Source: Pseudomonas chlororaphis subsp. piscium
GTDB lineage: Bacteria > Pseudomonadota > Gammaproteobacteria > Pseudomonadales > Pseudomonadaceae
Direction of reading: 5' to 3'
NCBI RefSeq assembly: GCF_003850345.1
Contig: NZ_CP027707.1
Span: forward strand, 3,348,001 to 3,412,000
Length of the DNA: 64,000 nucleotides
Part shown: positions 8,466 through 32,824 of the stretch, one piece after another
Numbering within the stretch: position 1 is the stretch's first letter
Layout: each line of letters opens with the position of its first letter
Program-made: the position numbers and the translations under genes
Notes under the pieces: model-generated
What the model saw: only the letters and a program-made list of their open reading frames with translations
Told to the model about the DNA's origin: nothing
Database searches by the model: none

Positions 8466-8619
8466 CCACCGTCATTGTCGAACAAGATGCATCCTGCCAA
8501 TACTCAACCCCATCATTCACTGGCTCCGCCAGCGTCAACACTCGATGGCAATATCCGCCAGGACAACCATCCTGGATAATTGCTGCCGATCATCATGGAT
8601 ACTTGAGAAGGACACTCAA

Positions 8620-9189
8620 ATGGTACGTGCCGTTACTATTCTCACCGAGAATTTCTCCGACTGGGAACCCGCACTCATCAACTCCACGGGGCGAGCCTAC
8701 TATGGCTTCGACACTCGTTTCGCGGCCCCCGGTGGCAAGCAAGTGATCTCATCCGGAGGAATGACCGTCATCCCGAACCTGGCCATCGAAGCCATCGCGC
8801 TGGAAGATGTCGACTTGCTGATCGTGACGGGAGGCCCTGTCTGGAAAACAGACAAGGCACCCGCAATCGAGGCGCTGGTTCGTGCGGCCCACGCCAGGAA
8901 AATCGTCGTTGCAGGCATCTGTGACGGCACCCGCGTCCTGGCCCAGGCTGGAGTACTGGATCACGTGCAGCATACGTCCAATTCCGCTGAGAACCTGAAG
9001 CAGGTGCATTATCGCGGAGCGGATTATTACCAGGATGTGCCCTATGCCGTTGCCGACCAGGGTGTGGTCACCGCGCCTGGTAGCGCTCCTGTCAGCTTCA
9101 TGGCGCAAATTCTCAATACCCTGGGTTTGAACGACAAGAAGCTCGATGCCTACCTGGCCATGCATGCGGCTGAACACATTCACTGCTGA
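8620..9189 (+). CDS. DJ-1/PfpI family protein (class I glutamine amidotransferase-like)
   Basis: 189 residues from the ATG at 8620 with GAGAAGGA upstream. The fold starts with MVRAVTILTENFSDWEPALI and the nucleophile elbow is VVAGICDGTRVLA, with Cys where DJ-1/PfpI proteins hold theirs. There is an acidic residue in the N-terminal segment and GGPVW in the middle. Family members include glyoxalase-like, isonitrile hydratase and stress enzymes. The reaction cannot be deduced here. It stands alone, with a long non-coding stretch on its right. Confidence 0.85.
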   Translation: MVRAVTILTENFSDWEPALINSTGRAYYGFDTRFAAPGGKQVISSGGMTVIPNLAIEAIALEDVDLLIVTGGPVWKTDKAPAIEALVRAAHARKIVVAGICDGTRVLAQAGVLDHVQHTSNSAENLKQVHYRGADYYQDVPYAVADQGVVTAPGSAPVSFMAQILNTLGLNDKKLDAYLAMHAAEHIHC

Positions 9190-9884: not shown

Positions 9885-11015
9885 ATGTCAAAAACAACAG
9901 CTCAAGGCCCGGCCACAGAATCAGTCGAACGGATGGGCATGATGCAGGCGCTTGCCGACGCCAGGCTCAGCGTCGAGGCCAAGGCCATGGTCGCCCAGGG
10001 CTTCTACATCGGGGTCGCCCAGGAAGTTTCCACTGTCATACCCCTCAAGGACGGGACCGACCCGGATCTCGGACTCTTGCGTCAGCTGGTGAGCGCTGGA
10101 TGGGGTGAGGAGCTGGGCCGTTATCTTGAAGTGCTCGATGTTCGCGGGAGCAGCGCTGCCGAGGCCTTGCGCAAGGCCCAGCTGGCTGTCAGATCCGGCA
10201 CTGCGCTATTTGCCGCTGGCAGCCTGGCCACTGGCACCGGATGGCACTGTCTCCTCTCGATCCATCATGGGTTGGCCGACGAACATAGCCTCGAGGTTCT
10301 GGCGCGCCTGCTGCAATCAGCGCAATCCGCTGACCTTGACTCGGCCCTGGCGCAGATGCGTCGAGGGCGTGGGTTCTATGAGGATTACGTCCAGGCCCAA
10401 GTACTGCACGCACAGGATGACGGCGGGCTGCGCACAGCTGTTGCGCAACCGATGGCGCCTGTGCGCCTGCTGCAAACCGGGCGCCTGGCCTTCAACGCCC
10501 AAGGGCCGCGAATGAGTCTGCAACGCACCCTGGACATCGCCACGATCAATGTCGACAAGCCCCCCATGGCGACACTCCTGGCCTGCCTGCAGCGGGCCGA
10601 TGTCATCGCCGAGGGCGACACCCTGTGTTCGTCGCACAACTGGCGCCCGGCTCACCAGCAGGATGCCATCGGCATGATGACGGGCCTTGTCCCGCTCTCC
10701 TTCGCCGGCCCTGGAACACAACCACTCCCCGGGCAAACCAGCCTTGAGGCACGTGCTCGTCGCTGTCCGGCGGCGCGTCAGGCGCTGGCCTGCTGCCGAG
10801 CGTCCGAGCTGTTCATCAACGGCGCGGGCCGGCGCGGCATCCCGGCCTCACAGGTGATGAGTGCAACTTTCCCGGTGGGAATCGAAATACGCCGCACAGG
10901 TGCTTCGCAACTGCTCCTGGAGATCGAGGGGCCGTTTTGCAACGCCAGTGCAGCCACCAACCTGCTCAATGAACTCGCTGATGTACTTATGGATAGGAGT
11001 GAATGGAATGACTGA
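9885..11015 (+). CDS. Stand-alone condensation-domain-like protein
   Basis: 376 residues from MSKTTAQG (ATG 9885); the frame opens earlier at 9825 but the region before 9885 has no homology feel. The chloramphenicol-acetyltransferase fold of NRPS condensation domains is suggested by LLSIHHGLADEHSLEVLARLL, where HHxxxDG reads HHGLADE: both His remain, Asp remains and Gly is Glu. A second C-like segment lies near the C-terminus (ELFINGAGRRGIPASQ). Free-standing C domains can join carrier-bound units or release a chain to a soluble acceptor. It overlaps the carrier-thioesterase gene by 8 bp, so it is the first gene of the operon. Confidence 0.7.
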   Translation: MSKTTAQGPATESVERMGMMQALADARLSVEAKAMVAQGFYIGVAQEVSTVIPLKDGTDPDLGLLRQLVSAGWGEELGRYLEVLDVRGSSAAEALRKAQLAVRSGTALFAAGSLATGTGWHCLLSIHHGLADEHSLEVLARLLQSAQSADLDSALAQMRRGRGFYEDYVQAQVLHAQDDGGLRTAVAQPMAPVRLLQTGRLAFNAQGPRMSLQRTLDIATINVDKPPMATLLACLQRADVIAEGDTLCSSHNWRPAHQQDAIGMMTGLVPLSFAGPGTQPLPGQTSLEARARRCPAARQALACCRASELFINGAGRRGIPASQVMSATFPVGIEIRRTGASQLLLEIEGPFCNASAATNLLNELADVLMDRSEWND

Positions 11016-12006
11016 AAACATCCAGTTCGATGAACAAGCCCTCGCCGATGAAGTGGCTCGCGTCTCTGCCACGTTTGCCGAGGTGCTCAAGCTGCCGCAT
11101 GTCGGCCATGCAGACAATTTCTTCAACCTCGGCGGCGACTCCTTCGACGCGATTCGCGTGATGTCGCGCCTGTCCTGCAACCTGCCCATCGTGACGCTTT
11201 TCGAGCACCCGACGGCAGCCGACCTGGCCCGGCGCATCCTCTGCGAAGCCACTCGACAAACCGCCCGCCTGGTCTGCTTTGGCGATGCGCAAGCCGCCGC
11301 AGGTTCGACCGCGGTGATTGCAGTTCCTTTCGGGGGTGGAGACGCCACGGCCTACCGCAACCTGTTTCAAGGCAACCAGGAGGTACAGGTTTTCGGCGTG
11401 GATTTCGGTGACTTCGAGGTCGAGGACGCCTTGGACTTCCGTGCCCTGCTCGACACCCTTGCTACCGAGATCGACGAGATCGGCGCCGCCCACCTGATGA
11501 TCTACGGCCACTGCGCCGGCGCGGCTACCGCAGCGTGCATTGCCTCGAGCATGGCCGATAGCCACGAAAGGCTGTCACTGGTGGTTGCAGCCTCGCGCCC
11601 GGTGCTGGATGCAGATGCCGCGATTGGCGCCGCCGAAATCACTTCGGACCAGACCTGGACCGACTACCTGCGCTCCCTGGGGGCCTTCACCGGACTGCTC
11701 GACACCCAGGTCGAGAGCATGCTGGCTCGCGGCCGAAGAGACCATCTGATCGCCTGCGAGGCCTATCGCTACCTGGCGCAGCACCCGGCACATGGCGTAC
11801 CGGCCTTGGTACTGCTGGGCGATGAGGATCCGGCTACCGCCGAGCCCGAAGTCGTACTGGAGCAATGGAGCAAGTTCATCGACGTCACCCAAGCGGCAAC
11901 CCTGGCAGGTGGCGGGCATTACTTCGTGCGCACCCATGCGCACGAGGTCGAGGAAACCGTGCTGTCGTTCGCAGCACACAACACCAAAGGAAGGGATAAC
12001 AAGTAA
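11008..12006 (+). CDS. Carrier protein-thioesterase didomain with Cys nucleophile
   Basis: 332 residues. Residues 1 to about 80 are a peptidyl carrier domain with the phosphopantetheine site in NFFNLGGDSFDA. The rest is an alpha/beta-hydrolase thioesterase: FGGGDATAYRNLF near its start, the nucleophile elbow YGHCAGAATA, Asp in LLGDEDP and His in GGGHYF. The nucleophile position is Cys, not the usual Ser of GHSxG. Cys-type thioesterases are known from NRPS lines that release strained rings, for example the beta-lactone of obafluorin. It should accept the finished chain and hydrolyse or cyclise it. The start overlaps the condensation gene and the stop overlaps the SHMT-like start. Confidence 0.85.
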   Translation: MTENIQFDEQALADEVARVSATFAEVLKLPHVGHADNFFNLGGDSFDAIRVMSRLSCNLPIVTLFEHPTAADLARRILCEATRQTARLVCFGDAQAAAGSTAVIAVPFGGGDATAYRNLFQGNQEVQVFGVDFGDFEVEDALDFRALLDTLATEIDEIGAAHLMIYGHCAGAATAACIASSMADSHERLSLVVAASRPVLDADAAIGAAEITSDQTWTDYLRSLGAFTGLLDTQVESMLARGRRDHLIACEAYRYLAQHPAHGVPALVLLGDEDPATAEPEVVLEQWSKFIDVTQAATLAGGGHYFVRTHAHEVEETVLSFAAHNTKGRDNK

Positions 12007-13361
12007 TGACAGTCAATCATCAACCGCTTCTTACCCAGGCCGATCTGCTCAAGCGTGGCCTGGCCGATCTTCAGGAACATGATGCCGAACTGGCGCGGAT
12101 CCTCGACGCCGAGGTCGCTCGCCAGCAACGCACCCTCTCGCTGGTCGCCTCTTGCTGCGCGGTCAAGCCCCGCACCCTGGCGGCTTCGTCCTCCGCGCTG
12201 GTCAATGTCACCGCCGAAGGTGTTCCCGGACGCCGCTATCACGCCGGCTGCGAGAACGTGGACCTGGTCGAGTCCCTGGCGATCCAGCGTGCCCGGGAGC
12301 TGTTCGGTGCGCAATATGCCGGTGTCCAGTCGCACTCGGCCTCCAGCGCCAACTACCAGGTGCTCGCCGCCCTGCTCGAACCAGGCGACACGCTACTGGG
12401 CATGGCCCTGGATAACGGTGGCCACCTGACCCATGGCAGCCCCGTGACCTTCTCGGGCACTTACTACAAGGCCATCGGCTATGGCACCACCAAGGAAGGC
12501 CTGATCGACTACGACGAAGTCCGCAGGCTGGCCCTGGAGCATCGGCCACGACTGATCATCTGCGGTGCCACGGCCTACTCCAGGGTCGTGGACTTCGAGC
12601 GCTTCCGGCAGATCGCCGATGAAGCCGGTGCCATCCTGATGGCCGACATCTCGCATATCGCCGGCCTGGTGGCGACCGGGCGTCATCCGAGCCCGATCGA
12701 CGCCGCGCACGTCACCACCACCTGCACCCACAAGCAGCTCGTAGGCCCCCGTGGCGGCCTGATTCTCTCGGGCCGTGACGCCAATGAAAAAGTCCCCGGC
12801 CGCGATGCGACCTTCAGCCGGGTGCTCGAACTGGCGGTGTTCCCCAGGATGCAAGGCGCGCCGGCCGTCAACATGATGGCCGCCAAGGCCGCAGCACTGG
12901 GTTACGCCATGACCCCGGAATTCGATGCCGAGATGCAACGCATCCGCGACGCGGCCGATGTGATGGCCAGCGAATTCCAGGCCCGGGACTATGAGGTGGT
13001 AGGCGGTCGCAGCGAAAACCACACCATCCTGATTCGCTTGCGTGCCGCGATGACCGGCGCTATCGCCGAGACCGCGCTGGAGCACTGCGGAATCGTCGTC
13101 AACAAGAACCGTGTGCCCGGCGAAACACGTTCGTCCTTCGTCACCAGCGGCCTGCGCATCGGTACCGGCGCCCTCGCCCAGCGCCATGTCGACGCGCAGG
13201 GATGCCGGCAGATCGTCGACCTGCTCTGCCGGATCCTGGACGAGGTGACTCCGCTCGGCGAGAGCGAGTTCACCCTGGACCCGGCCCTGCGCAAGCAATT
13301 CTGTGCGGAAGCCGAGGCGCTGTGCGTGAAGTATCCGATCGCTGACTACCTGGCAATCTGA
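12006..13361 (+). CDS. Serine hydroxymethyltransferase-like PLP enzyme
   Basis: 451 residues of fold-type I. The PLP lysine is in CTHKQLVGPRGG, the ring-stacking His and Asp in NGGHLTHG and MADISHIAGLVA, and the Glu of the active-site loop in TAEGVPGRRYHAG. Housekeeping SHMT has LIASEN and KRYYGG, while this protein has LVASCC and RRYHAG, so substrate-side residues have changed. Within a peptide cluster the likely job is a threonine-transaldolase-like reaction, alpha-hydroxymethylation, or formation of a beta-hydroxy amino acid. The obafluorin enzyme ObaG is a known SHMT-like transaldolase. It starts inside the stop of the thioesterase gene. Confidence 0.85.
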   Translation: MTVNHQPLLTQADLLKRGLADLQEHDAELARILDAEVARQQRTLSLVASCCAVKPRTLAASSSALVNVTAEGVPGRRYHAGCENVDLVESLAIQRARELFGAQYAGVQSHSASSANYQVLAALLEPGDTLLGMALDNGGHLTHGSPVTFSGTYYKAIGYGTTKEGLIDYDEVRRLALEHRPRLIICGATAYSRVVDFERFRQIADEAGAILMADISHIAGLVATGRHPSPIDAAHVTTTCTHKQLVGPRGGLILSGRDANEKVPGRDATFSRVLELAVFPRMQGAPAVNMMAAKAAALGYAMTPEFDAEMQRIRDAADVMASEFQARDYEVVGGRSENHTILIRLRAAMTGAIAETALEHCGIVVNKNRVPGETRSSFVTSGLRIGTGALAQRHVDAQGCRQIVDLLCRILDEVTPLGESEFTLDPALRKQFCAEAEALCVKYPIADYLAI

Positions 13362-13388
13362 AGCAGTCTCTGGCACTGCTGGAGGCAT

Positions 13389-13416
13389 GGCACGACGGTC
13401 CGGCGATCGTCGTGCC
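13389..13416 (+). promoter_or_regulatory. Intra-operon hairpin, GGCACGACG/CGTCGTGCC
   Basis: A perfect 9-bp stem with a 10-base loop in the 90-bp gap between the SHMT-like gene and the flavin reductase. No T-run follows, so it is unlikely to be a strong terminator. It could set RNA stability or the relative expression of the two operon halves. Confidence 0.5.
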
Positions 13417-13451
13417 CGCAAATACGCAAACTCTAAGGAGAGAGAGGAACC

Positions 13452-14186
13452 ATGACGGACAAGATCAAGTATGTCGCCATCAATGGCTCGGAACGGGTGG
13501 ATGGCAACAATGCCAGGGCGCTGGAGTGGGCGGCCGAGTACCTGGAAAAACAGGATGTCATTCTCGAGGTTTTTTCACTGGCCAGCGCCAAGATCGACCC
13601 CTGCGGGGCCTGCGGCGATTGCAATTTTCGCAACGAGCCCTGCGTGCAGAAGGATGACGCCGCGCGTGCGGTGCAACTCATGGAAGCCAGCGATGGCGTG
13701 ATCTTCGCCTGTGCCGTCCATGGCTTTGGCGCAACGCCCTTGATGTCGGCATTCCTGGAGCGTGTCGGGACCGGGTTCCTGCGCCACGATCGCACCCTCA
13801 CCAACAAGGTGGCCGGGGTCATGGTGACCGGCCGGCGCATGGGCCATGTGGAGGTCTACAACCAGATGCTCCAGTGCGCCTTGCTGAACCGCATGATCAT
13901 GGTCGGCTACGGCTTCCCGGCCATGCTCGTGGGCGACAAGAAAGGCGAGGTCCTGGGCGACAAGGAAGGTATGGAGATGCTGCGCCGGATGCTCGATCGC
14001 ATGGTTTCCATGACCCGCCTGATGCGCGACCACGAACGACTCACAGGGCAGCCGGTACTGCAGGTTTCGGTACCAGGGGAGCGCCATCGCGAGGGCAACG
14101 ACGGCAAGTTCTTCGTCCCGGCCAAGTCCGACATGTACCAGCTCGAGGCCGCTCGCAGCTGCAACTTCGATGTCGTCGGCGACTGA
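13452..14186 (+). CDS. NADPH-dependent FMN reductase-like flavoprotein with Cys cluster
   Basis: 244 residues with a strong Shine-Dalgarno (AAGGAGAGAGAGG). The flavodoxin-like start KYVAINGSERVDGNNARALEWA binds the FMN phosphate. Then KIDPCGACGDCNFRNEPC places four cysteines in a C-x2-C-x2-C-x6-C pattern, the spacing typical of the iron-sulfur flavoprotein subgroup. The C-terminal extension (from about residue 190) is unlike small FMN reductases. In the cluster it could supply electrons for dehydrogenating the heterocycle, or reduce an N-hydroxy, nitro or quinone group. A 90-bp gap with a hairpin separates it from the gene before. Confidence 0.8.
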   Translation: MTDKIKYVAINGSERVDGNNARALEWAAEYLEKQDVILEVFSLASAKIDPCGACGDCNFRNEPCVQKDDAARAVQLMEASDGVIFACAVHGFGATPLMSAFLERVGTGFLRHDRTLTNKVAGVMVTGRRMGHVEVYNQMLQCALLNRMIMVGYGFPAMLVGDKKGEVLGDKEGMEMLRRMLDRMVSMTRLMRDHERLTGQPVLQVSVPGERHREGNDGKFFVPAKSDMYQLEAARSCNFDVVGD

Positions 14187-14217
14187 ACTGCGCAGCCCAA
14201 CAGCTATCGAGAACCTT

Positions 14218-15336
14218 ATGAGCATTAGAACTGCCTGCAATGGCCTCACCGACACCCACCTGCGGGAATGGATAGTGTCGGAACACTTCGAGCGCCTGGC
14301 GGATGCAACGGTGGCACAGATTGCACAGGCCTATGTCGGCGTCTATTCGGCCCGGCCTACCAGTTGGCTGGCGGTCATGGCGCGCAATCGCAACCTCGAT
14401 CGCAAGACCGTACTGGCCATGGAAAACCTCAGCGACCTGCTGCGTATCCCGGGCATGCGGCGCTCCAAGTTCCTGCTGCCCGGCGAGCTGGCGGCCAAGG
14501 TCTTTGCCGCCACACGCCTGCCGCTGGCCAACCACGAATGGCGCCTGCGGGACGTAGGGCTTGGCCTGGACGATTACCGGCGACTGCTACCGGCGCTGGT
14601 CGCCTTCAGCAATGGTGTCTCGGTACGCCTGCAGGACATCGGCAGCGCCCTCGACCTGCCGGCACCCCAGGCGCGTGCAGTGACCTCGGTTGCCGCCTAT
14701 GACGGCGCATTGGTGCGTATATCGGCGGCCAACCAATGGTCCAACCGCTGGCTGTACTCGGCCGCACCCGATGGGCTGCTACCCGGCGACGGCGTGCCAC
14801 TGGACCGCGATTCGCTACTGCGCGATATCGCCGGGCGCTACGTCGAACACTACGGACCGGTCACGGTCGACGACCTGGCCTGGTGGCTCGGGGTTTCAAA
14901 GGAAACCGCGCGCGGGCTGCTTCAAGCCTGCGGAGCCAGCCAGGTCGGAAACCAGATGTGGCACAGCCAGGCCGGCCTGGCGCGCCTTGAGCAGTTCCTC
15001 GAACGCGCCAAGGCCCCCACGACGGCGCAGATCCGCTTCCTGCCGGCCTGGGATCCCCTGGTAATGGGCTATGCGCCCGGCTCCAGACAGCGCAACTGCC
15101 TTGAGTTGGAACGTGTCGGTGGCTACGACGCGGCCGGTAACGGACGGCCGGTGGTGCTCATCGGTGGCCGGGCTGTCGCCACCTGGAACACCGCGGCCAA
15201 GGGCAGCAAACGCTTCATCGCAGTCGATGCCTCGACACTCGCCGACCAGGAGCGTGAAGCCGTGCTTCAGGCTGCCTCGGTGCTGGCGGAGCAGATCGGG
15301 GCCATTCACCAGATCGAGAACAAAACCACAGCGTGA
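14218..15336 (+). CDS. AlkZ/YcaQ-like winged-helix protein (HTH_42 family)
   Basis: 372 residues from ATG 14218 (an alternative at 14170 overlaps the previous gene and lacks a site). Family marks are LAWWLGVSKETARGLL and IRFLPAWDPLVMGYAPGSRQR, the latter corresponding to the LPAFDPYLLGYRDR block. AlkZ and YcaQ are DNA glycosylases that unhook bulky or crosslinked bases and give self-resistance in azinomycin-type clusters. Their catalytic Q-x-Q sits after a GV near residue 40; here the matching segment reads GVYSARPTSW, so both Gln appear lost. It may bind modified DNA without cutting, sequester product, or have a biosynthetic role. It is embedded in the operon, 14 bp before the synthetase gene. 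Confidence 0.75.
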   Translation: MSIRTACNGLTDTHLREWIVSEHFERLADATVAQIAQAYVGVYSARPTSWLAVMARNRNLDRKTVLAMENLSDLLRIPGMRRSKFLLPGELAAKVFAATRLPLANHEWRLRDVGLGLDDYRRLLPALVAFSNGVSVRLQDIGSALDLPAPQARAVTSVAAYDGALVRISAANQWSNRWLYSAAPDGLLPGDGVPLDRDSLLRDIAGRYVEHYGPVTVDDLAWWLGVSKETARGLLQACGASQVGNQMWHSQAGLARLEQFLERAKAPTTAQIRFLPAWDPLVMGYAPGSRQRNCLELERVGGYDAAGNGRPVVLIGGRAVATWNTAAKGSKRFIAVDASTLADQEREAVLQAASVLAEQIGAIHQIENKTTA

Positions 15337-15349
15337 CAACAGGGAAGGC

Positions 15350-18300
15350 ATGAACAAAATGAGGGACGACATGACATCAGTACCCCCCGAGCCACAATCG
15401 CTGTCAGGCAACGAGCGCAGCCTGTGGGACGCGTTCGCGTGCCCGGCGGCCGGACCATCAGCCGACAGCACGCGGGACCAGGAAGACATTGCCCTGCCCC
15501 CTGGCCTGGCGGCCAGCATGAACGACCTGATTACGGTCGCCGCGGTCCTGGGCTCCCTGCTCAGCCCGGAAGGCAGGCTAATCCTGGGAATCCATGACGA
15601 CGGCAAGCCGTCGCAGCTCGGCGTCGATTGCACGGCGTTGAACCTTGCAGAAGACGCCCGGGCCTATATCGCGCAGTTGCGCGACCATGCCGAAGCGCCC
15701 CATGGCGAGACGCAATTGCGTGCCGATATCGAGATCAGCGATGGCAAGAGCCTGCCAGCGGCGCAATCGCCGGTCTGGCTGCTGGTGCAGGACGGCCGTT
15801 GCCAACTGTCGGTACGCAGCGATCGCATGACCCGGGCCGTACGCCTGGAGTTGCTTGAACTGGTGGCCTTCGCTTGCGCCCGATTACTTGATCCCAAGGC
15901 CCTGCCGGCTTCCACTATCCAGCCCGCCTGCCCTGCCCCGGCCGAAGCCGGCCCGCGCCAGTTCCTGGTGGAGCGCATCTACCGGCATGTACAGAGCAAG
16001 CCATCGGCGGTGGCGATAGTCGATGACAACAGCGACCGCAGCCTGACCTACGCCGAACTCTGGGACGCCTCCGAGGCACTGGTCCAGCACATACGCGAAC
16101 GCGTCACTTCCCGGCGTTCGAGCCCGCGCCTGGCGCTGTTCCTCGAGCGCGGCTGGCAACACCTGGCCTCGATCATCGCCGTGCAACGCATGGGGGGCAC
16201 CTGCGTGCTGATCGACCCGGCGCATCCTGACGAACGCATTCGGGCCTTTATCGAAGAGTGCAGTCCGCATGCGGTGTTGACCGCAGGCAGTACCACCGAG
16301 CGAGCGAAAGATTTGGTGGCCTATCCGCTGCTGGACATCGACAAGGTGCAGCTACGCCCTACCCACGTCGATTGGGAACACGGCAAGTGGGTCGACACCA
16401 CCAACGAGGCCTGCTTTATCGCCGGCACTTCCGGCAGTACCGGACGGCCCAAGGCGGTATGCCTGTCCTATCGGGGGATGGCCGCTACCCTGGACGCCAT
16501 TATCGATCAGGCCGGGCTGGGCGAGCATAGCCGCGGCTCATGGCTATCCTCGCCCGGCTACGGGATGGTCGAGGTTGATCCGCTGCCGGTACTGTGCGCC
16601 GGCGGCACGGTCTGCATCCCTGCCCCGCCGGTGCTGCAGGACGTCAACCTGCTGGCGCGCTGGCTGCTCGAAGGCGACATGAACCATACGCTGGCCATGA
16701 CTTCCATCGCCGAAGCGCTGTGGGCCACCGGGATCCGGACCGGCCTGCGCACCATGCTGATCGCCGGCGAACGCTGCAAGCAATGGCCGCCGGCCGACCT
16801 CGGCTACCGGGTGATCAATGTCTATGGTTCCGCGGAGGCCGCGGTGGTTTCCATCGAGGACCTGTGCGCACCACGCCGCACCTTGCTGCCCTCGGTGGGA
16901 CGCGCGATACCCGGCGCCCAGATGTATGTGGTCGACCGCCACGGCCAGCAGCTTGCGGCCCGTTGTGTCGGTGAGCTGATCATCACCGGCGAAACGCTGT
17001 CGGTGGGCTACGTGAACCCCGAGGACACGAAGAAGGCGTTTCGTGGCAACACCCTGGACGCCACTTCGCCATTGCAATACAGCACCGGCGATCGGGCGCG
17101 CATGGCCGCCGATGGCACTGTGGAAATCTTCGGGCGGACCGATTCGGTGGTGAAGATCCGCGGACATCGGGTCGACCTGACTGAACTGGAGATCACCGCG
17201 CTGCAAGTACCGGGCGTGGTGAAGGCGGCGGCCAACTGCTTGAGCAACGACCTGGGCGCGACGCTGGCGTTGTTCCTGGAGCTGGCTCCGGACGCCGCAG
17301 AGGTGGTGGCCAAGGTTCGCAAGCACCTGGCCGCGCGCCTGCACCCGGCTGCCCAGCCCGGCCAGATCGTGACCGGCACCCTGCCCCTGGGGCGCAACGG
17401 CAAGGTTGACTACAGCGCGCTGCAGGTCGGCCCTATCGAGCGCGATGCGGGCCAGACAGTCTTCGCCCCAGAGACCCAGGCAGACCACGCGGTACGCGAT
17501 TGCTGGCTGGCCTGGACGCTCTGTGAAGAGGCGACGCTGGAGTCGAGTTTCTTCGACGCCGGCGGCGATTCCCTGCGCGCCTTGCGCATGGTCGGTGAAT
17601 TGGCCTGCAAGCATGGCATCCATGTGCAAATGGGCGCGTTCCTCGAGGAGCCGGTACTGGCGAACCTGGTCCGCCTGGCCAATGCCTCGCGCGATACCCA
17701 GTTGCCGAAGTTCGAGCACCTACCGGCGCAGCAGCAACTGCTGCCGTTCGAACTCAACGAAAGCCAACAGGCGCTGTGGATCGGTCGTGGTTCGTTCTAC
17801 GACTACGGCGGCGTCGGCTGCCAGGGCTATTTCGAATGGGAAGTGCAGGCCCTGGATCGCGAGCGCTTCACCCGTGCCGTGGGGCTGCTGGTCGAGCGCC
17901 ATCCGATGCTGCGCATGACCATCGATGCCAGCGGACGCCAGAGCATCGGCGATGTCGACGGTACCCAGGCGGTGGAGTACGTCGATCTCAGCGCCCTGGA
18001 CGCGGCGCAGATCGACCAGGAGATCGACCGGGTCCGCGAACGCATGGCCAACGAAGAAATCGGCACCACGCAATGGCCACTGTTCCAGTTCCGCATCAGC
18101 CGCCTCAGCGCCAGTACCAGCCGTGTGCATCTGTGCATCGACATGCTGATCGCCGATGCCTGGTCGATCTTCCAGGTGATCATCCCCGACCTGATCGATC
18201 TCTACCTGGAAGATGAGCCACAGCTGCCGGTGCTCCAGACCAGCTTCCATGACTACGTCGCCTATCGGCAAAAAGTACTCAAGAGCGCCCAGTACCAGGC

Positions 18301-20872: not shown

Positions 20873-22194
20873 GCAAGGACAACCTGCACCAGCAATGGCT
20901 GGAAGATGTGGACGCCTACCTGGATGGACGCACCACGCCACAGGAACTGGAGGCCAAGGGACAACTGCGGGCCCGGGAAGTCTTGCGCTATGTCCAGGAA
21001 CGCTCGACGTTCTATGCCAGGCACCTGCGCTCGCAACTGGGCGGTCCCAGCGCGCTGCCGGCGCTGGACGGCATACCTTTCACCACCAAGGAAGACCTGC
21101 GCGCAGTCGGCCGTTCGGTCTGCAGCCTGCCTTTCGACCAGATCGCGGTGTACTACGAGACGACCGGCACCACGGGGTTGCCAACCCCCTGCCCGCGGGC
21201 GGCGATCGATGTGGAGACCAGCGGTGCCTATGTGCAGAAGGCCGTCGCCGACCTGTACCAGTCGACATTCGGCACCACCGATGCCCTCACCGCGATCATG
21301 GGGCCGTCGGAGCTGTATGCGTTCGGCGATACCTATGGCGAGGTCTGCCGCAACCTGGGCATTCCCTATGTGCGGCTGTGGCCGGAAAGCCCTCGGGTCG
21401 GCCTGGTCAAGGCCGCCCAGTTGATCAACGACCTCGGCGTCCGTTCGCTGATCTGCTCCCCCGCCGTGGCCCTGGCCCTGGCCCGCCTCTATGTGAGCCA
21501 GGGGACCGACCCGCGCGAGACCGCGGTGGGCCAGATCATGGTGCTGGGCGAACTGTGCACGCCGCAGATGCTGAGCAATATCGCCCGGGTCTGGAATGCC
21601 CATTGCACCCATGGCCTGTATGGCTCTCAGGAAGCCCATGCGGTGGCCACTGGCTGCGCCAACGGCAACCTGCACTTCTCCGAGACCAACTATCTGGCGG
21701 AGATTCTTCCGGTTCCCGGCATGGAGGGCGATATCGGCGAACTGTGCCTGACGATGCTCGTGCCCGGGGCCAAGCCGCTGATCCGCTACCGCACCGGCGA
21801 CCTGGCGCGCCTGCACTCCGCCGAGGAGTGCGGGTGCGGCAACCGTTCTCGTTGCCTGCGGGTGTTTGGCCGGGTGAGTGATGTGATGACCCTGGGCGGT
21901 CGCCAGGTACTGCCGGCACTCATCGAGTCGGCGGTGCTGACGGCGGCCGAGTGGGTCTCTGGCTACGAGGTCAGGATCTGCACCGCCAGCGACGGCAGCG
22001 ACCATGTCGAGGTGTCGATGGTGGCGGGTATCGGCGAGCGTTCGGTGGCCCAGGTACAGGAGCAGATGGCCGGCCATTTCGGCACCTCGGTCCAGCTGCA
22101 ACTGGAGCAGAGCCTGGATCCGAGGACCGAGACCGGTGCCTACATTTCCTGGAAGCACGCACGTATCCGCGATCAACGGGAGCCGGCCCTGTGA
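20869..22194 (+). CDS. PaaK/CapK-like adenylate-forming ligase
   Basis: 441 residues, overlapping the synthetase stop by 4 bp. It belongs to the phenylacetate-CoA ligase branch: YYETTGTTGLPTP is the phosphate-binding loop near residue 97, YGSQEAHAV the substrate-side motif and RYRTGDLARL the late adenylate motif. It has CxCxxxxxC (ECGCGNRSRC), as several PaaK-like proteins do. It probably activates a carboxylic acid, plausibly an aryl acid such as anthranilate, as AMP ester for loading a carrier domain or CoA. That would share or replace the A1 task, so one of the two has another substrate. Confidence 0.82.
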   Translation: MSKDNLHQQWLEDVDAYLDGRTTPQELEAKGQLRAREVLRYVQERSTFYARHLRSQLGGPSALPALDGIPFTTKEDLRAVGRSVCSLPFDQIAVYYETTGTTGLPTPCPRAAIDVETSGAYVQKAVADLYQSTFGTTDALTAIMGPSELYAFGDTYGEVCRNLGIPYVRLWPESPRVGLVKAAQLINDLGVRSLICSPAVALALARLYVSQGTDPRETAVGQIMVLGELCTPQMLSNIARVWNAHCTHGLYGSQEAHAVATGCANGNLHFSETNYLAEILPVPGMEGDIGELCLTMLVPGAKPLIRYRTGDLARLHSAEECGCGNRSRCLRVFGRVSDVMTLGGRQVLPALIESAVLTAAEWVSGYEVRICTASDGSDHVEVSMVAGIGERSVAQVQEQMAGHFGTSVQLQLEQSLDPRTETGAYISWKHARIRDQREPAL

Positions 22195-23591
22195 GCTCAT
22201 TACAGCCCATCCCCATATGGCGTGTGGAGCACCGCGAAGTCGCCGATGCCGCACCGGTCGCCCAGGTGCGTCGTGGCCTGCTGGGGCTCTATCCATGTCC
22301 AGCGCTGTTCGAGACCGGCGCGGGTTTCCTGCCGGTCGACGGCAACCAGACCACCTTCATGATCGACCTGCTATTGGAGCTCAAACTGGTCAATGGCACC
22401 TGGCAGCTGTCCGCCAGCGCGCCCTTCCAGTGGGCCTTGACCGCTTGCGAACGGCTGCTGGACAACCCGCAGTCGAGCCTGGGCGAACGCCTGCGGCGGG
22501 TAGCCCAGACCCTGGCCCTGCCGGAAGGTTTTCCCCTGGTGCTGGCCCTGGGCTACAGCGCCGCGCGCTTCGTCGAAAATCTGCCGGGAATGGCCATCGA
22601 GCAGGATGTACCGGAGGTGGTGGTGCGGGTCTACCGGCATATCGTCCGCTACGAAGACCCCCAGGGTCCGGCGCGGATCGACGTACTCAACGCCGGGACC
22701 AAGGATGGAGCGGACCTTGAAGCCCTGCTCGCGGTGCTTCGCCAGCCGCCGGCGGCACCACTGCCTGGCGTCGCCGTGGAAGCCGCGGTGGTCGAGGACG
22801 TCACCGATCGCGAGGCGTTCTGCGCGGCCGTTTCCCGGGCCAAGGAGTACATCCGCGCCGGTGACATCTACCAGGTGCAGTTGTGCCGTCGGGCCGTCTC
22901 CAACGCGGCGATTGCCCCAGTGGAGCTCTACGAGCGCCTGGCGTCGGTCAATCCGGCGCCCTACATGTACTACCTGGACCTTGCCGACCTGCACGTCGTG
23001 TCATCCAGCCCGGAGCTGATGATCCGCCTCCAGGACGGTGTGGCCCAGGTCCGGCCGATCGCCGGGACCATGAGTCGGGAGGACCAGCGCGGCAGTCCGC
23101 TGGACAGGATCCCCAAGGAAGCCGCCGAGCACCTGATGCTGGTGGATCTGGCGCGCAACGACCTGGCCCGTTGCGCGGTTCCCGGGGGCGTGCAAGTGAG
23201 CTCGTTCATGCAGCAGGACACCTATGGGTCCCTGCTGCACCTGGTCTCTACAGTGGAGACCAGGGTGCGCGAGAACTGCGATGTCTGGGACCTGATCATG
23301 GCCAATTTCCCGGCGGGCACCATGACCGGAGCCCCCAAGGTCCGGGCAATGGAAATCATCGCCGAGCTGGAAGGCACCGCTCGCGGGCTGTACACCGGTT
23401 GCGTGGGCTACATCACCGGGGCCAACAGCGCGGTGCTGGCCCTGACGATCCGTACCATCGTCGGCAATGCCGGGCGCTATGTCTTGCAGTCTGCCGCGGG
23501 AGTCGTCGCCGACTCCCAGGCCGAGGATGAATGGAATGAGGCGGGAGCGAAGATCAAGTCGTTTTCCCGAGCGATGGGAGCCAGCGCATGA
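22191..23591 (+). CDS. Chorismate-utilising synthase component I, anthranilate/ADIC type
   Basis: 466 residues with a GTG start at 22191 that overlaps the previous stop as GTGA. The C-terminal catalytic domain has VSSSPELMIRL, RPIAGTMSRED, LMLVDLARNDLARC, FPAGTMTGAPK and the ending AGVVADSQAEDEWNEAGAK. The loop is PIAGT. PabB-type enzymes that aminate C4 have PIKGT with a catalytic Lys, so this one should aminate C2 and give anthranilate or 2-amino-2-deoxyisochorismate. It pairs with the amidotransferase encoded next and supplies an aromatic amino acid building block for the synthetase. Confidence 0.87.
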   Translation: MSSLQPIPIWRVEHREVADAAPVAQVRRGLLGLYPCPALFETGAGFLPVDGNQTTFMIDLLLELKLVNGTWQLSASAPFQWALTACERLLDNPQSSLGERLRRVAQTLALPEGFPLVLALGYSAARFVENLPGMAIEQDVPEVVVRVYRHIVRYEDPQGPARIDVLNAGTKDGADLEALLAVLRQPPAAPLPGVAVEAAVVEDVTDREAFCAAVSRAKEYIRAGDIYQVQLCRRAVSNAAIAPVELYERLASVNPAPYMYYLDLADLHVVSSSPELMIRLQDGVAQVRPIAGTMSREDQRGSPLDRIPKEAAEHLMLVDLARNDLARCAVPGGVQVSSFMQQDTYGSLLHLVSTVETRVRENCDVWDLIMANFPAGTMTGAPKVRAMEIIAELEGTARGLYTGCVGYITGANSAVLALTIRTIVGNAGRYVLQSAAGVVADSQAEDEWNEAGAKIKSFSRAMGASA

Positions 23592-24172
23592 GAGTGATGC
23601 TAATCGACGCCTTCGACAGCTTTGTGCATGTCATCGAGCAGTACTACTCGGCCGCGGGTGCAGAAACCAGGGTCGTTCGCGTCAACGACGACCCCATCGC
23701 CCAGTATCGACAGTGGCAACCGCAGTTACTGGTCCTGGGGCCCGGTCCGGGCACGCCCGAGGACCATGGCTACCCGCAGATAATTCGCGCGATGGATGAA
23801 CGGCAGGCTATCTTTGGTGTCTGCCTGGGGCACCAGGCACTTGGCGAACATTTCGGTTGGAAGCTCACACGTGCGCCTACCGCCGAACATGGCAAGTACG
23901 CCCAGGTCCACCATGACGGACAGGGCATTTTCCAGGATGTGCCCTCGGCCGTCACCGTGGTGCGTTATCACTCGCTGGCAATCACCGACCCGGGAACGAC
24001 AACCTCGCTAATGGCCACGGCCTACTCGGACGATGGCGTGAACATGGCGGCGCGACACCGTACCCGGCCGATCGAAAGCGTGCAGTTTCACCCCGAGAGC
24101 ATTGGTACCGACTACGGGATCAAAATGATCCGTAACTCATTAGCCCTGGCCAACGTCAACGCCATGGGCTGA
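23588..24172 (+). CDS. Glutamine amidotransferase component II (TrpG/PabA type)
   Basis: 194 residues, ATGA overlap with component I. The class I amidotransferase triad is complete: Cys in GVCLGHQALGEHFG, His and Glu in VQFHPESIGT, with the oxyanion region LGPGPGTPED. It releases ammonia from glutamine for component I. The opening IDAFDSFVHVIEQYY is close to TrpG IDNYDSF with small changes. Genomes of this group carry separate trpG and pabA copies, so this is a dedicated cluster paralogue. It is the last gene before a hairpin and the exporter. Confidence 0.88.
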   Translation: MRVMLIDAFDSFVHVIEQYYSAAGAETRVVRVNDDPIAQYRQWQPQLLVLGPGPGTPEDHGYPQIIRAMDERQAIFGVCLGHQALGEHFGWKLTRAPTAEHGKYAQVHHDGQGIFQDVPSAVTVVRYHSLAITDPGTTTSLMATAYSDDGVNMAARHRTRPIESVQFHPESIGTDYGIKMIRNSLALANVNAMG

Positions 24173-24192
24173 TCGCTCAAGAAAGAAGCCTC

Positions 24193-24221
24193 GGGTGCCG
24201 GCCGGACGCCGGCCGACACCC
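24193..24221 (+). promoter_or_regulatory. Hairpin between the amidotransferase and exporter genes
   Basis: GGGTGCCGGCCG pairs with CGGCCGACACCC with one mismatch in 12 bp and a 5-base loop. No T-run follows. It could be an attenuator or RNA stability element that separates biosynthesis from export and self-protection. Confidence 0.5.
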
Positions 24222-24245
24222 ATTAAATCTAAGGATTGGATAAAC

Positions 24246-25670
24246 ATGACTCACACACCCGCGAATGCAACGCTCAATGAAAAACGATGGCAGGCACTGG
24301 CTGTCATCTCGATCATCCAGCTGATACTGCTGCTGGATGCCACCGTGGTGAACGTGGCCCTGCCACGGATCAAGCACGAGCTGGGACTCACGGATGGGTC
24401 CCTGACCTGGGTAGTCAATGCCTACCTCATCACCGCCGGATCGCTGTTGCTGCTGGGCGGGCGGATCGGCGACGCCTTTGGGGTGCGGCGCACCTTCCAG
24501 GTCGGCGTAGTGATTTTTGGCGCATTTTCCTTGCTGGCGACCTTCGCCGAAGATGCCACCGTGCTGATCATCAGCCGTGCCGGGCAAGGGGTCGGTGAAG
24601 CCCTGGCTTCGGCCACCGGACTGGCCATGGTGTCGCTGCTGTTTCCCTCCGGCCCCGAGCGCGGCAAGGCGTTTGGCATCTGGGCGGCACTGGGCGGCCT
24701 GGGCTCGATCATCGGCGTACTGCTGTCCGGCGTACTGACGCATTATCTGTCGTGGCGCTGGGTGTTCGGGGTCAACGTACCGGTCGTCATGCTGCTGATC
24801 CTGGCTAGCACGGTGATGATTCCCAAGTTCACCCACCGCGGTTCCACCCCTCTGGACCTGGGCAACGCACTGATCCTGGTGGTTGCCGTCGCCGCGACCG
24901 TCATGGCCGTGATGGGCTCTGGCATCGAGCACCTGCCTGGACAGCGCGTGGCGCTCCTGGTGCTGGGCCTACTGGGTATCGCCCTGGTACTGCGTCGTTG
25001 CAAACGCTCGGAAAACGGCATTATTCCCGCACGCCTGATGACTCGCTCTCCCCGCCTGGCCGGCTACGCCATCGTGGCCATCCTGGCAGCGACCTCCGGC
25101 GCCCTGTTCTACCTGGGTGTACTGTTGCTGCAAGACTACCTCGGCCTGAGCCCGATGCAGACTGGCCTGGCCTGGCTGCCCTTCTGCCTGGGTTTCTTCC
25201 CCGGCATCTTCCTTTCGCAGTTCGTCATGCAGCGCTGGAGCCCACAGGCAGCCGCCGTTGTCGGCCTGGCAACCTCGGCGCTGGGTTTTGCATTGTTCGC
25301 CTTAGGCGTACCTCTGCATAGCTACTGGCTGGGAATGCTCCCGGCCATGCTGGTCACCTCCATCGGCTTCGGTTGTGTCGCACCGGTCGCTCAGTCGTTG
25401 GCCACCAGCGACCTTAGCGAGGCGGACGCCGGTGCCGGGTCGGGTATCACCACCACCATCCAGCAGTTGTTCCAGGTGTTCGGGGTCACCCTGCTGGCTG
25501 CCGTGGCCCTGGCGGTCTCCGACAGCAGCGGAGTGCCGACCATCGCGGCCAATGGTTTCGTGAGCGCTTTCGCACTGTCGGCGCTGGCGATGATCGGTGG
25601 TGCCTTGCTGATCTGGGCCGGACGCAATGCCCTGGCTCTCGAGCCGGCCCCATCGAGCCCCCAGCCGTAG
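24246..25670 (+). CDS. MFS drug exporter, DHA2 type (14 TM)
   Basis: 474 residues from ATG 24246, with AAGGATTGG upstream. A cytoplasmic start is followed by VISIIQLILLLDATVVNVALPRI, a hallmark of DHA2 exporters (LDxTVVNVALP, motif D1). Motif A is present as GGRIGDAFGVRR and motif C as GVLLSGVLTHYLSWRWVFGVNVP. About 14 hydrophobic segments can be counted. It should export the cluster product across the inner membrane in exchange for protons and give self-resistance. The last cluster gene follows 9 bp later. Confidence 0.9.
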   Translation: MTHTPANATLNEKRWQALAVISIIQLILLLDATVVNVALPRIKHELGLTDGSLTWVVNAYLITAGSLLLLGGRIGDAFGVRRTFQVGVVIFGAFSLLATFAEDATVLIISRAGQGVGEALASATGLAMVSLLFPSGPERGKAFGIWAALGGLGSIIGVLLSGVLTHYLSWRWVFGVNVPVVMLLILASTVMIPKFTHRGSTPLDLGNALILVVAVAATVMAVMGSGIEHLPGQRVALLVLGLLGIALVLRRCKRSENGIIPARLMTRSPRLAGYAIVAILAATSGALFYLGVLLLQDYLGLSPMQTGLAWLPFCLGFFPGIFLSQFVMQRWSPQAAAVVGLATSALGFALFALGVPLHSYWLGMLPAMLVTSIGFGCVAPVAQSLATSDLSEADAGAGSGITTTIQQLFQVFGVTLLAAVALAVSDSSGVPTIAANGFVSAFALSALAMIGGALLIWAGRNALALEPAPSSPQP

Positions 25671-25679
25671 GTTATCGTC

Positions 25680-26951
25680 ATGCATCAGAACTACCTGATT
25701 CCCCCCTTCAAGGGACCCCTCACGACGCTTTCTAGTGTCGCGGGGCTGCGGGAAAAATGGACCGGGGCGATGCTTGACCAGACAGGGCGCGCCTATTCTG
25801 GCGCGCTGCGTCTGGACTTCAGCGCGCAGTGTTGCCAGGAGCAAGTATTCGACGCCGTGGCCCAGACCCTGGCTCGGCATCCGATCCTGGCGGCCCGATT
25901 CGACATCGAAGGAGAACAACTGGTCGGCCGAGCCCCCAGCGAACAGGCATTGCGCCAAGCCTTGCGCGAGCAATTGGGCAAGGTGCAGGCCGCAGTCACC
26001 GACCAGGGCTTCCTGGACTACCGGGCCAGGCAAGCCGCCGAACCCGGGCTGCGCATCGCCTCGGCGGTAGACGAGGCTGGCCTGCACATCTGGATCGGCT
26101 TCTGGATCTATACCTGCGATGGCGCGTCGATTGACCTGCTGCTGGAGGATATCGCCCGGCATTACCTGGACCAGCCCCCGGTATCTTGCAGCGCCTGGAA
26201 CGACTATTGCCGGATGCAGCACCTGCCGGAGCAGCCAGTAAGCGCGGCGCAACAGCTTGAGATCTACCCGGGGACGGGACCCTACGGGCTCGATGCACTG
26301 CGCACTAAAGGCAGTGGCGGCATGGGGCGCATGCAGAGCCTGAAGTTCACCTCCAGCGTGCCGCGCAGCAGGGTTCTGGACTATGCCAGGGCCCAGCGCG
26401 TGACGCCGTTCGTGCTGCTGTTGGCCATCTACCAACGGGCAATCAGTGCAGTCAGCGGCGTTGCCACCGTGGTGACCGGCGTCCCCTTCGCCAACCGCCC
26501 GGGAGCTGCGGCCCAGACGCTGGTGGGGCCGTTGTCCAATACCATCCCGATCAGTACCCGGCATGAGCCCGGCGAACCATTGGCGGCAGTGATCAAGCGC
26601 GTGCAGCGGGCGGTGATCAATGCCGCGGCTCGTCAGGACATAGAACCGGCAGCCTTGTATCCCGAGGGCATGTCTACGCGCACCGCCGGCTTCGAACTGC
26701 CGTTTCCCCAGCTGTTCAACGCCTGGAACTCACGCAGCGAAGGCAGCCGCATCGCCCTGGGCGACAACCAGTGGATGAGCCTGCAGTTATTGCCGAACGA
26801 TACCTGCCGCGTGGCTTTCGAAATCACCCTGGATGAGCACACCGAGCATATTTCAGGGCGGATCGACATGGACGCCGCAGCCTATGGCGAACATGCGGGA
26901 CAGGTCATCGAACAGATGATCCGCGACCTGCAAGACATCCCCGGCGATTGA
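25680..26951 (+). CDS. Condensation-like protein with lost catalytic His
   Basis: 423 residues. The size and pattern resemble an NRPS condensation or PapA-type acyltransferase domain: an N-terminal CAT-like subdomain, a middle HHxxxDG region, and a second subdomain with VTPFVLLLAIYQRAI, VVTGVPFANRP and LVGPLSNTIPIST. The active motif reads WIYTCDG, so the two His are Trp and Ile while Asp-Gly remain. It is therefore unlikely to catalyse ordinary amide formation. It could be a scaffold, a donor-site interaction partner, or an enzyme using another base. It is the last gene of the operon, followed by a hairpin. Confidence 0.75.
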   Translation: MHQNYLIPPFKGPLTTLSSVAGLREKWTGAMLDQTGRAYSGALRLDFSAQCCQEQVFDAVAQTLARHPILAARFDIEGEQLVGRAPSEQALRQALREQLGKVQAAVTDQGFLDYRARQAAEPGLRIASAVDEAGLHIWIGFWIYTCDGASIDLLLEDIARHYLDQPPVSCSAWNDYCRMQHLPEQPVSAAQQLEIYPGTGPYGLDALRTKGSGGMGRMQSLKFTSSVPRSRVLDYARAQRVTPFVLLLAIYQRAISAVSGVATVVTGVPFANRPGAAAQTLVGPLSNTIPISTRHEPGEPLAAVIKRVQRAVINAAARQDIEPAALYPEGMSTRTAGFELPFPQLFNAWNSRSEGSRIALGDNQWMSLQLLPNDTCRVAFEITLDEHTEHISGRIDMDAAAYGEHAGQVIEQMIRDLQDIPGD

Positions 26952-27098: not shown

Positions 27099-28070
27099 TC
27101 AGCTCTGTAAATGACATCGCACGCGCTGCTGCTCATCCTCCAGCAAGGCCTGGGGCTTTTCGCAGCCAAGGGTGCACAGGCTGCAACGTTCGCGGAAGAA
27201 GCAGCCACTCGGTAGCCGACGGTTCCCTGGCAATTCGGTAGGCGCCGCAACCTGTTCGGCATGCAGCGGCACGCCTAGTCGTGGTACCGCCTCGAGCAAC
27301 AAGCGGGTATAGGGATGGCGTGGCTGATCGAGAACCTGGGCTGCGCTGCCAAGTTCAACGATTTGCCCCAGGTACATCACCGCTACCCGGTTTGCCATAT
27401 GACGGACTACTGAGACGTTGTGGGAAATCAGGATATACGTCAGGTTGCGAGCGCTTTGTAACTCCACCAGAAGGTTAAGGATCTGTGCCTGAACCGAAAT
27501 GTCCAGCGCCGATGTCGGCTCGTCCAGGACAATAATATCCGGGTCTGATGAAAGGGCTCGGGCAATGGCAATCCGCTGTCGCTGACCACCGGAAAACTGG
27601 TGGGGGAAGCGGTCCAGGTATTCCGGGCGGATGCCGACTTGGGCCGCGACCCGGGCCGCCACATCGCGCATCTGTGCACGGGAAGCGTGACCTCGGGCGT
27701 ATAACGGCTCGGTGATGATTTTCCAGATAGGCAAGCGTGGATCAAGCGAAGACTGTGGGTCCTGGAAAACAATTTGAACGTTGCTGCTGCCCTCGCCGCC
27801 GCCGCGACTAACCCAGTTCAGCTCACCGCTGCTGGGCGGCACCAAACCCATCAATAGCTGCGCCAATGTGCTTTTGCCACAGCCCGATTCGCCCACAATC
27901 CCCAGGGTTTCTCCCGCCCGTACCTGAAGGTCAATGCCGTTCAGGGCGTGGGCATATCCCCGCGGTCGACCGAGCCAATCATTACTGATGGGGAAACGGA
28001 CGCGAACATCGTCAAGTTGGAGAATCGTGGGTGCCATTTGGGGGACGGTATGCATGACGGCATTGTTCAT
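27099..28070 (-). CDS. Dipeptide/oligopeptide ABC transporter ATP-binding protein (DppF/OppF type)
   Basis: 323 residues from ATG 28070, which overlaps the stop of the upstream ATPase gene as TGATG. Walker A is GESGCGKST, the signature is FSGGQRQRIAIARAL and Walker B is DIIVLDEPTSALD. The C-terminus carries the four-cysteine oligopeptide-family extension (CFFRERCSLCTLGC). It powers import through the two permeases encoded upstream. It is the last gene of the operon. Confidence 0.92.
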   Translation of the reverse strand: MNNAVMHTVPQMAPTILQLDDVRVRFPISNDWLGRPRGYAHALNGIDLQVRAGETLGIVGESGCGKSTLAQLLMGLVPPSSGELNWVSRGGGEGSSNVQIVFQDPQSSLDPRLPIWKIITEPLYARGHASRAQMRDVAARVAAQVGIRPEYLDRFPHQFSGGQRQRIAIARALSSDPDIIVLDEPTSALDISVQAQILNLLVELQSARNLTYILISHNVSVVRHMANRVAVMYLGQIVELGSAAQVLDQPRHPYTRLLLEAVPRLGVPLHAEQVAAPTELPGNRRLPSGCFFRERCSLCTLGCEKPQALLEDEQQRVRCHLQS

Positions 28071-29943: not shown

Positions 29944-29944
29944 G

Positions 29945-30961: not shown

Positions 30962-31036
30962 TTGGCACCTCAACAACACGAGCGACGAGAATCAGAAGCC
31001 GCGCCAGCCGCGAACAGCTGGCGCGAGGGAGCGGGT

Positions 31037-32617: not shown

Positions 32618-32824
32618 GCCGGTTTCCTTGATCATTCGATAGGGAAGTAGGTCAGGTTTTTTATAAAAGCTATAACCGGGCAGTTGCAGGTGAAACCTAA
32701 GTGATGCTGGTTTGTTGTTGTTATCAGCCGCAGTGAAAGTGGGCTGTGCAGTGTGCCTTTCGAAAACTCTCTGGTTTTTTTCGGGGGCTGTGTTGCGGTT
32801 CGCTTGGCTTGTAAAACCCGTGGC

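Follow-up and report, generated by a model that had tools for sequence, protein, structure and literature searches.

Which product is made by the compact gene cluster at positions 9885–26951 of the window, and is that product new? The window is a stretch of 64,000 nucleotides (positions 3348001–3412000 of a genome of 7.07 Mb in one contig) from Pseudomonas chlororaphis subsp. piscium, and a sequence-only reading of it had taken the cluster for an unfamiliar one. Almost certainly, the locus is pbz, the cluster for benzobactin, in a strain of P. chlororaphis subsp. piscium, and as such is already known. It needs no discovery claim, and the right label spares the re-isolation of known compounds.

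Open reading frames and their translations give eleven plus-strand genes, with neighbors overlapping or almost touching. The compact, overlapping layout is therefore as first described, with eleven genes rather than the ten then counted. From 5′ to 3′, they encode a condensation (C)-like protein, a carrier (T)–thioesterase (TE) protein (PbzA), a serine hydroxymethyltransferase (SHMT; PbzB), an FMN_red protein (PbzC), an AlkZ-like protein, a nonribosomal peptide synthetase (NRPS; PbzD) of the form A-T-Cy-A-T (A, adenylation; Cy, heterocyclization), a PaaK-like protein (PbzE), TrpE-like and TrpG-like proteins (PbzF and PbzG), a major facilitator superfamily (MFS) protein, and a second C-like protein (PbzI). 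All eleven occur in the same order on a contig of Xenorhabdus vietnamensis DSM 22392, at 47–83% identity. The pbz cluster in the text of PMC10098953 comes from DSM 21509, a strain of P. chlororaphis subsp. piscium, and yields benzobactins A–C, with production shown upon induction; the text of PMC9177418 reports on X. vietnamensis DSM 22392, with its xvb cluster and benzobactin A. Since xvb/pbz is a characterized cluster with the same families in the same order, the claim of an unfamiliar cluster falls.

PbzB is identical to PDB chain 7qcw over residues 2–451. A fused TrpE/TrpG (phzE)-type gene is located at 5940785–5942251, at a distance of 2,565,834 bp from the cluster end, among genes that, by their translations, appear to form a phz operon. 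In DSM 21509, phzE is placed 2.6 megabase pairs from pbz (PMC10098953). Given the identity to 7qcw, the same gene set, and a phzE distance of 2.57 versus 2.6 Mb, the strain is probably DSM 21509 itself or one closely related to it. The benzoxazolinate cassette is also present, in the form of an SgcG-type dehydrogenase, an acyl-AMP ligase, and an anthranilate-synthase-I-like, 2-amino-2-deoxyisochorismate (ADIC) synthase.

Most of the eleven proteins are clearly supported by Pfam. The weak cases are the first C-like protein, the thioesterase half of PbzA (thioesterase-type matches just under their cut-offs), and PbzE, with no Pfam match at E ≤ 0.001. In NCBIfam, PbzE matches PaaK/FlxY/BagE-type ligases, all under their cut-offs; by the text of PMC10098953 the protein is a putative acyl-AMP ligase and not a coenzyme A ligase. 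Published diagnostic residues are found in PbzB, PbzE, PbzD-A1, and PbzI. For example, the zinc tetrad C263-H269-C321-C323 and the C-terminal K429 given for PbzE-type ligases in PMC10098953 are all present under the published numbers. Likewise, the PbzB-type motif TAEG...RYH, with residues numbered T68/H78 in that text, is present as TAEGVPGRRYH (T69/H79 counting Met). Relatives of PbzE include a 97% match in P. chlororaphis, a 72% match in X. vietnamensis, and one 43% match named SgcD5 (benzoxazolinate biosynthesis). PbzD is bimodular, with a non-amino-acid A1 and a Cy-like C1 whose core, DMLIADAWS (DxxxxDxxS), is intact. Further motifs noted from the letters alone were borne out: the PIAGT loop of the TrpE-like protein, the Cys nucleophile of the thioesterase (GHCAG), the Cys cluster of the flavoprotein (CGACGDC...C), a first A domain without the alpha-amine Asp (GYGMVE in place of FDxS; the second A reads FDMS), and the atypical character of both C-like proteins.

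Three points weigh against the identification. The PDB id for PbzB reads 7QWZ in the text of PMC10098953, yet the matching chain is 7qcw. Sequence identity to DSM 21509 was checked for PbzB only, by way of that chain. Finally, the 97% P. chlororaphis protein is the top listed database match to PbzE, not one at 100%, in a set with entries clustered at 90%.

The same genes had been read as a new anthranilate-starter peptide cluster, in which an anthraniloyl unit is joined to an amino acid, either heterocyclized or of the beta-hydroxy kind, and a Cys thioesterase effects the release. The TrpE/TrpG-like pair with PIAGT, the aryl-type A1, the intact Cy core, and the Cys thioesterase all accord with it, but such a cluster is extremely improbable here. 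This gene set, in this order, yields benzobactins in X. vietnamensis, as pbz does in P. chlororaphis; PMC10098953 describes deletions of pbzA, pbzB, pbzD, pbzF with phzE, pbzG, and pbzI; and a plain anthranilate route has no place for PbzC and PbzE. What survives of that reading is a single compact NRPS pathway whose aryl starter stems from an enzyme that aminates chorismate at C2, and whose SHMT-like enzyme supplies an unusual amino acid, namely the hydroxymethylated 2-hydroxymethylserine. By the text of PMC10098953, the starter is benzoxazolinate, via ADIC, rather than anthranilate, and benzobactin B is released by something other than the TE domain. With a benzoxazolinate starter, the 120-Da aminobenzoyl fragment is not the expected diagnostic ion; by our own arithmetic from the formula, a benzoxazolinoyl acylium ion would lie near m/z 188.03.

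In the published scheme, whose steps are either shown or proposed, chorismate is converted to ADIC by PbzF, aided by PhzE from elsewhere in the genome, and ADIC is dehydrogenated by PbzC to 3-O-enolpyruvoylanthranilate. Adenylation of the latter by PbzE allows its amine to close the ring, yielding benzoxazolinate for loading by PbzD A1-T1. The second module of PbzD then adds 2-hydroxymethylserine, the product of PbzB, and the T domain of PbzA together with PbzI accounts for a second residue or dimers. Deletion phenotypes given in the text of PMC10098953 include an unchanged product profile without pbzG, continued formation of benzobactin B without pbzA, and loss of benzobactin A without pbzI. 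The MFS protein is probably the exporter of the product.

The closest solved relative of PbzD, 6lta, is presumably FmoA3, an oxazoline former of the JBIR-34/35 pathway. An alpha-methylserine/methyloxazoline product, drawn from this analogy, was set aside in favor of the published 2-hydroxymethylserine. By arithmetic, benzoxazolinic acid (derived formula C10H7NO4) condensed once with 2-hydroxymethylserine gives an [M+H]+ of 323.09, and a second dehydration of that product, to an oxazoline or a lactone, gives 305.08. Benzobactin B is described in the text of PMC10098953 with an ester and a mass of 305; whether it holds an ester or an oxazoline is raised here as a question and not as a correction.

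How widely is the cluster distributed? A survey covered 80 named loci that encode PbzE relatives, the best 80 of 127. The remainder of a benzobactin-type cluster (matches to pbzA, B, D, E, F, G, and I) was found in seven of these (L031–L037), representing six genomes, as a single Brenneria assembly contributes two contig ends, L033 and L034. Among the 149 genomes of an earlier draw, a PbzE relative of at least 90% identity occurred only in that of the window (G000) and in G006. Cluster genes are under purifying selection, with ratios of nonsynonymous to synonymous substitution rates (dN/dS) of 0.05–0.33 against two relatives, MWU13-2100 and BCA17; for the first C-like gene the value (0.33) comes from one relative only, as the gene is incomplete in the stretch of the other.

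Several side observations belong here. No match to pbzC was found in the fetched stretches of two benzobactin-type loci, L035 (Halobacillus karajensis) and L036 (Clostridium sp. DSM 8431), though dehydrogenation of ADIC would need a PbzC-type enzyme. Twelve Pseudomonas loci (L077–L079, L083, L085, L087, L090, L094, L096–L098, and L102) encode a 36–39% PbzE relative, a 33–35% PbzC relative, and a TrpE/TrpG-like pair. No match to PbzD was found in these twelve loci, which possibly represent another benzoxazolinate-type pathway. Relatives of PbzE at 47–53% (P0036, P0040, and P0046) are named from Mammaliicoccus, Staphylococcus epidermidis, and Streptococcus; others are of unnamed source. The window genome also encodes a second PbzB-type SHMT, 76% identical, at 5797872–5799197 (L027:9860–11215, minus strand). 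Its motif reads TAEG...RHQ rather than RYH, so its activity may differ, and tblastn found no match to the other pbz proteins in the 20 kb fetched around it.

Two parts of the cluster are still worth work: the AlkZ-like gene and the C-like gene upstream of pbzA. The AlkZ-like protein shows the AlkZ/HTH_42 fold across its whole length. In the text of PMC9040887, the catalytic motifs of AlkZ-like/YQL proteins are defined as (Q/H)xQ, QxD, or Hx(S/T)(D/E), and the Tyr-Ser motif is not among these three motifs described there for Streptomyces. The window protein has none of them and reads YSA instead, with Tyr and Ser at residues 43 and 44. Y-[S/A]-x is found in all 122 aligned proteins, window included, both catalytic residues being missing. 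A close clade that extends across phyla has Y-[S/A]-x, PTSW, and RRSKF-type motifs in common. The gene points to a branch of a DNA-repair superfamily with an altered active site. Decay of the gene was considered and rejected, as its dN/dS of 0.19 (MWU13-2100) and 0.18 (BCA17) lies within the range of the other genes and it is conserved across phyla.

A family profile of the AlkZ-like protein scored 581–601 bits in six of the seven benzobactin-type stretches. The remaining locus, that of Clostridium sp. DSM 8431, has the gene a short way beyond the limits of the stretch fetched at first (464 bits, 41% identity), on the strand of the cluster and past a transporter-like gene on the opposite strand. 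The AlkZ-like gene therefore accompanies 7/7 benzobactin-type loci. Whole-genome searches with PF06224 were made for 26 loci, which came to 24 genomes after removal of L043 and one shared genome. A match was found in 22 of the 24, the two genomes without one being those of X. szentirmaii and of the Cardiobacteriaceae metagenome-assembled genome of L100. The cluster copy is the only one in Halobacillus, Clostridium, and X. vietnamensis, and in Brenneria the only two are cluster copies. At E ≤ 1e-20, the family profile matched 2 of 298 Pseudomonas genomes, again G000 and G006; the 298 were drawn evenly from a larger group, with at most six first-look candidates per genome scored among the matches shown. 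A general association of AlkZ-like genes with benzoxazolinate was tried and dropped: outside the benzobactin-type loci, only 4 of the 80 (L039, L042, L056, and L082, all actinobacterial) have one in the fetched stretch, at 19–48 bits and with HAQ, QAQ, or QSQ motifs kept (L085, at E 0.11, was left out of the count). Some co-occurrence of this kind is expected by chance in actinobacteria, as each of their genomes searched has between 3 and 10 matches to PF06224.

What, then, does the AlkZ-like protein do? The chances are about even that it protects the producer, by whatever means. In the reading proposed here, it would be a DNA-binding protein that shields the DNA of the producer from the product. 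Its presence in every benzobactin-type locus, together with the lack of a PF06224 match in the genome of X. szentirmaii, whose xsb cluster makes benzoxazolinate only, favors such a role. Other observations weigh against it. The Gln and Asp of QxD are described as essential for excision in YcaQ/AlkX (PMC13303869), and both are missing here; the texts of PMC10098953 and PMC9177418 report no DNA damage by benzobactin; and the toxicity to HepG2 cells given in PMC9177418 is modest, at 19.0 µg/ml versus 0.06 for doxorubicin. Neither “alkz” nor “glycosylase” is found in the main text of PMC10098953 or of PMC9177418, although their supplements may list the gene, perhaps under another name. Among the matches listed from the open-licence literature, no benzobactin paper was found alongside AlkZ or glycosylase.

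As to the means, a non-catalytic protein that binds DNA or the drug, as a shield or a regulator and not a repair enzyme, has a real though less than even chance of being correct. The absence of both catalytic residues throughout the alignment argues for it, as do matches of winged-helix regulators such as MarR to the middle region, although these mostly span the middle of the model and the Foldseek matches beyond rank 3 are above E 0.001. The whole AlkZ fold, the motifs shared by the close clade across phyla, and purifying selection would also suit an active DNA glycosylase, in which a new active site, with Tyr-Ser for Gln-x-Gln/Asp, might excise benzobactin adducts. The requirement for Gln and Asp in YcaQ/AlkX makes this an unlikely alternative. 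Comparably doubtful is a passenger, whether biosynthetic or there by chance, with no role at DNA. The gene is not among the deletions described in the text of PMC10098953, and the absence of the two search terms from its main text also accords with a passenger; retention by all seven benzobactin-type loci, though at another position next to the cluster in Clostridium, and the lack of a PF06224 match in the xsb genome of X. szentirmaii speak against one.

Returning to protection of the producer, the conservation of a gene of this type suggests DNA as the target of benzobactins. AlkZ-like genes are met repeatedly alongside PbzB/FmoH-type SHMTs and Cy modules: with benzobactin here, with JBIR-34/35 in print, and with tambromycin by similarity of product. 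A wider proposal is offered tentatively: benzobactins or an intermediate may bind to DNA or damage it, and a branch of AlkZ/YcaQ with Tyr-Ser in place of the catalytic glutamine may protect the producers among the Proteobacteria and Firmicutes. If this is true, serine-derived NRPS products of the benzobactin/JBIR-34/35/tambromycin type would be a class of unrecognized genotoxins.

The C-like gene upstream of pbzA, here called C0, overlaps pbzA by 8 bp, and its product has no NCBIfam match. Relatives at the same end of the cluster are found in Pseudomonas sp. MWU13-2100 (76%), X. vietnamensis (47%), and Clostridium sp. DSM 8431 (31%). The HHxxxD motif is kept, as SIHHGLADE in the window and SIHHALADE in X. 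vietnamensis, and in the Clostridium relative the first His is replaced by Asn (INHALADE). The gene is not named in the text of PMC10098953, where the inducible promoter was placed before pbzA, so that a role of C0 would fall outside the tests of that study, as far as its text shows. C0, with its histidines kept, beside PbzI, with its histidines lost, is a second testable puzzle.

Coordinates of the cluster genes are collected in Table 1. On the 5′ side, the cluster is flanked by a DJ-1/PfpI gene (8617–9189) and a 2-hydroxyacid dehydrogenase gene, and on the 3′ side by a dipeptide ATP-binding cassette transporter set on the opposite strand (27099–32635). Pseudomonas sp. MWU13-2100 likewise has a DJ-1/PfpI gene on the 5′ side of its cluster; the Xenorhabdus stretch, as fetched, reaches only to the C-like gene.

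Table 1. Genes of the benzobactin cluster, in window positions.
Gene	Product	Position	Strand	Support
C0	C-like protein, 376 aa	9885..11015	+	Pfam Condensation E 1.4e-4, below cut-off; SIHHGLADE motif
pbzA	Free-standing carrier (T) + thioesterase, Cys nucleophile GHCAG	11008..12006	+	Pfam PP-binding 1.1e-10; ATG at 11008; role in text of PMC10098953
pbzB	Serine hydroxymethyltransferase, forming 2-hydroxymethylserine	12006..13361	+	Pfam SHMT 1.9e-121; 7qcw match; activity shown in text of PMC10098953
pbzC	FMN-dependent Cys-cluster dehydrogenase, SgcG type (ADIC to 3-O-enolpyruvoylanthranilate)	13452..14186	+	Pfam FMN_red 1.1e-24; CGACGDCNFRNEPC; role in text of PMC10098953
	AlkZ-like (HTH_42) protein, 372 aa; candidate self-protection gene	14218..15336	+	(Q/H)xQ or QxD replaced by Y-S-A
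pbzD	NRPS A1-T1-Cy-A2-T2	15350..20872	+	Pfam; motifs; closest solved relative 6lta, 635 bits; role in text of PMC10098953
pbzE	PaaK-type acyl-AMP ligase, benzoxazolinate ring closure	20869..22194	+	NCBIfam PaaK-type matches below cut-off; diagnostic residues; role in text of PMC10098953
pbzF	Anthranilate-synthase-I-like ADIC synthase	22191..23591	+	Pfam chorismate_bind 1.3e-78; RPIAGT; presumed GTG start at 22191; deletion phenotype in text of PMC10098953
pbzG	Anthranilate-synthase-II-like glutamine amidotransferase	23588..24172	+	Pfam GATase 5.7e-44
pbzH (by order; presumed letter)	MFS transporter	24240..25670	+	Pfam MFS_1 1.4e-49; 71% to X. vietnamensis gene in same position; presumed start codon
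pbzI	Free-standing condensation enzyme	25680..26951	+	Pfam Condensation 6.5e-18; without active-site histidines (FWIYTCDGAS); deletion phenotype in text of PMC10098953

How does the locus compare with known systems? Set beside pbz of DSM 21509, as described in the text of PMC10098953, no difference was found in gene families, in PbzB, or in the distance of phzE. The xvb cluster of X. vietnamensis is carried on a 51-kb plasmid (PMC10098953), whereas that of the window is chromosomal. The xsb cluster of X. szentirmaii DSM 16338 has relatives of PbzC (84%), PbzE (70%), and an A-T protein (55%); relatives of the SHMT, the T-TE protein, and PbzI were not found in the xsb stretch by tblastn at E ≤ 1e-5. 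JBIR-34/35 and tambromycin, from Streptomyces, are products with a chlorinated indole and a methyloxazoline, and we know of no benzoxazolinate cassette in their clusters. Both clusters have an AlkZ-like gene (PMC9040887), a likeness drawn from its description there, and that of JBIR-34/35 has a PbzB-type SHMT, FmoH (PMC10098953). Finally, the AlkZ/AlkX (YcaQ) glycosylases have their fold in common with the window protein over its full length and differ in the active site, where their (Q/H)xQ or QxD is replaced by YSA.

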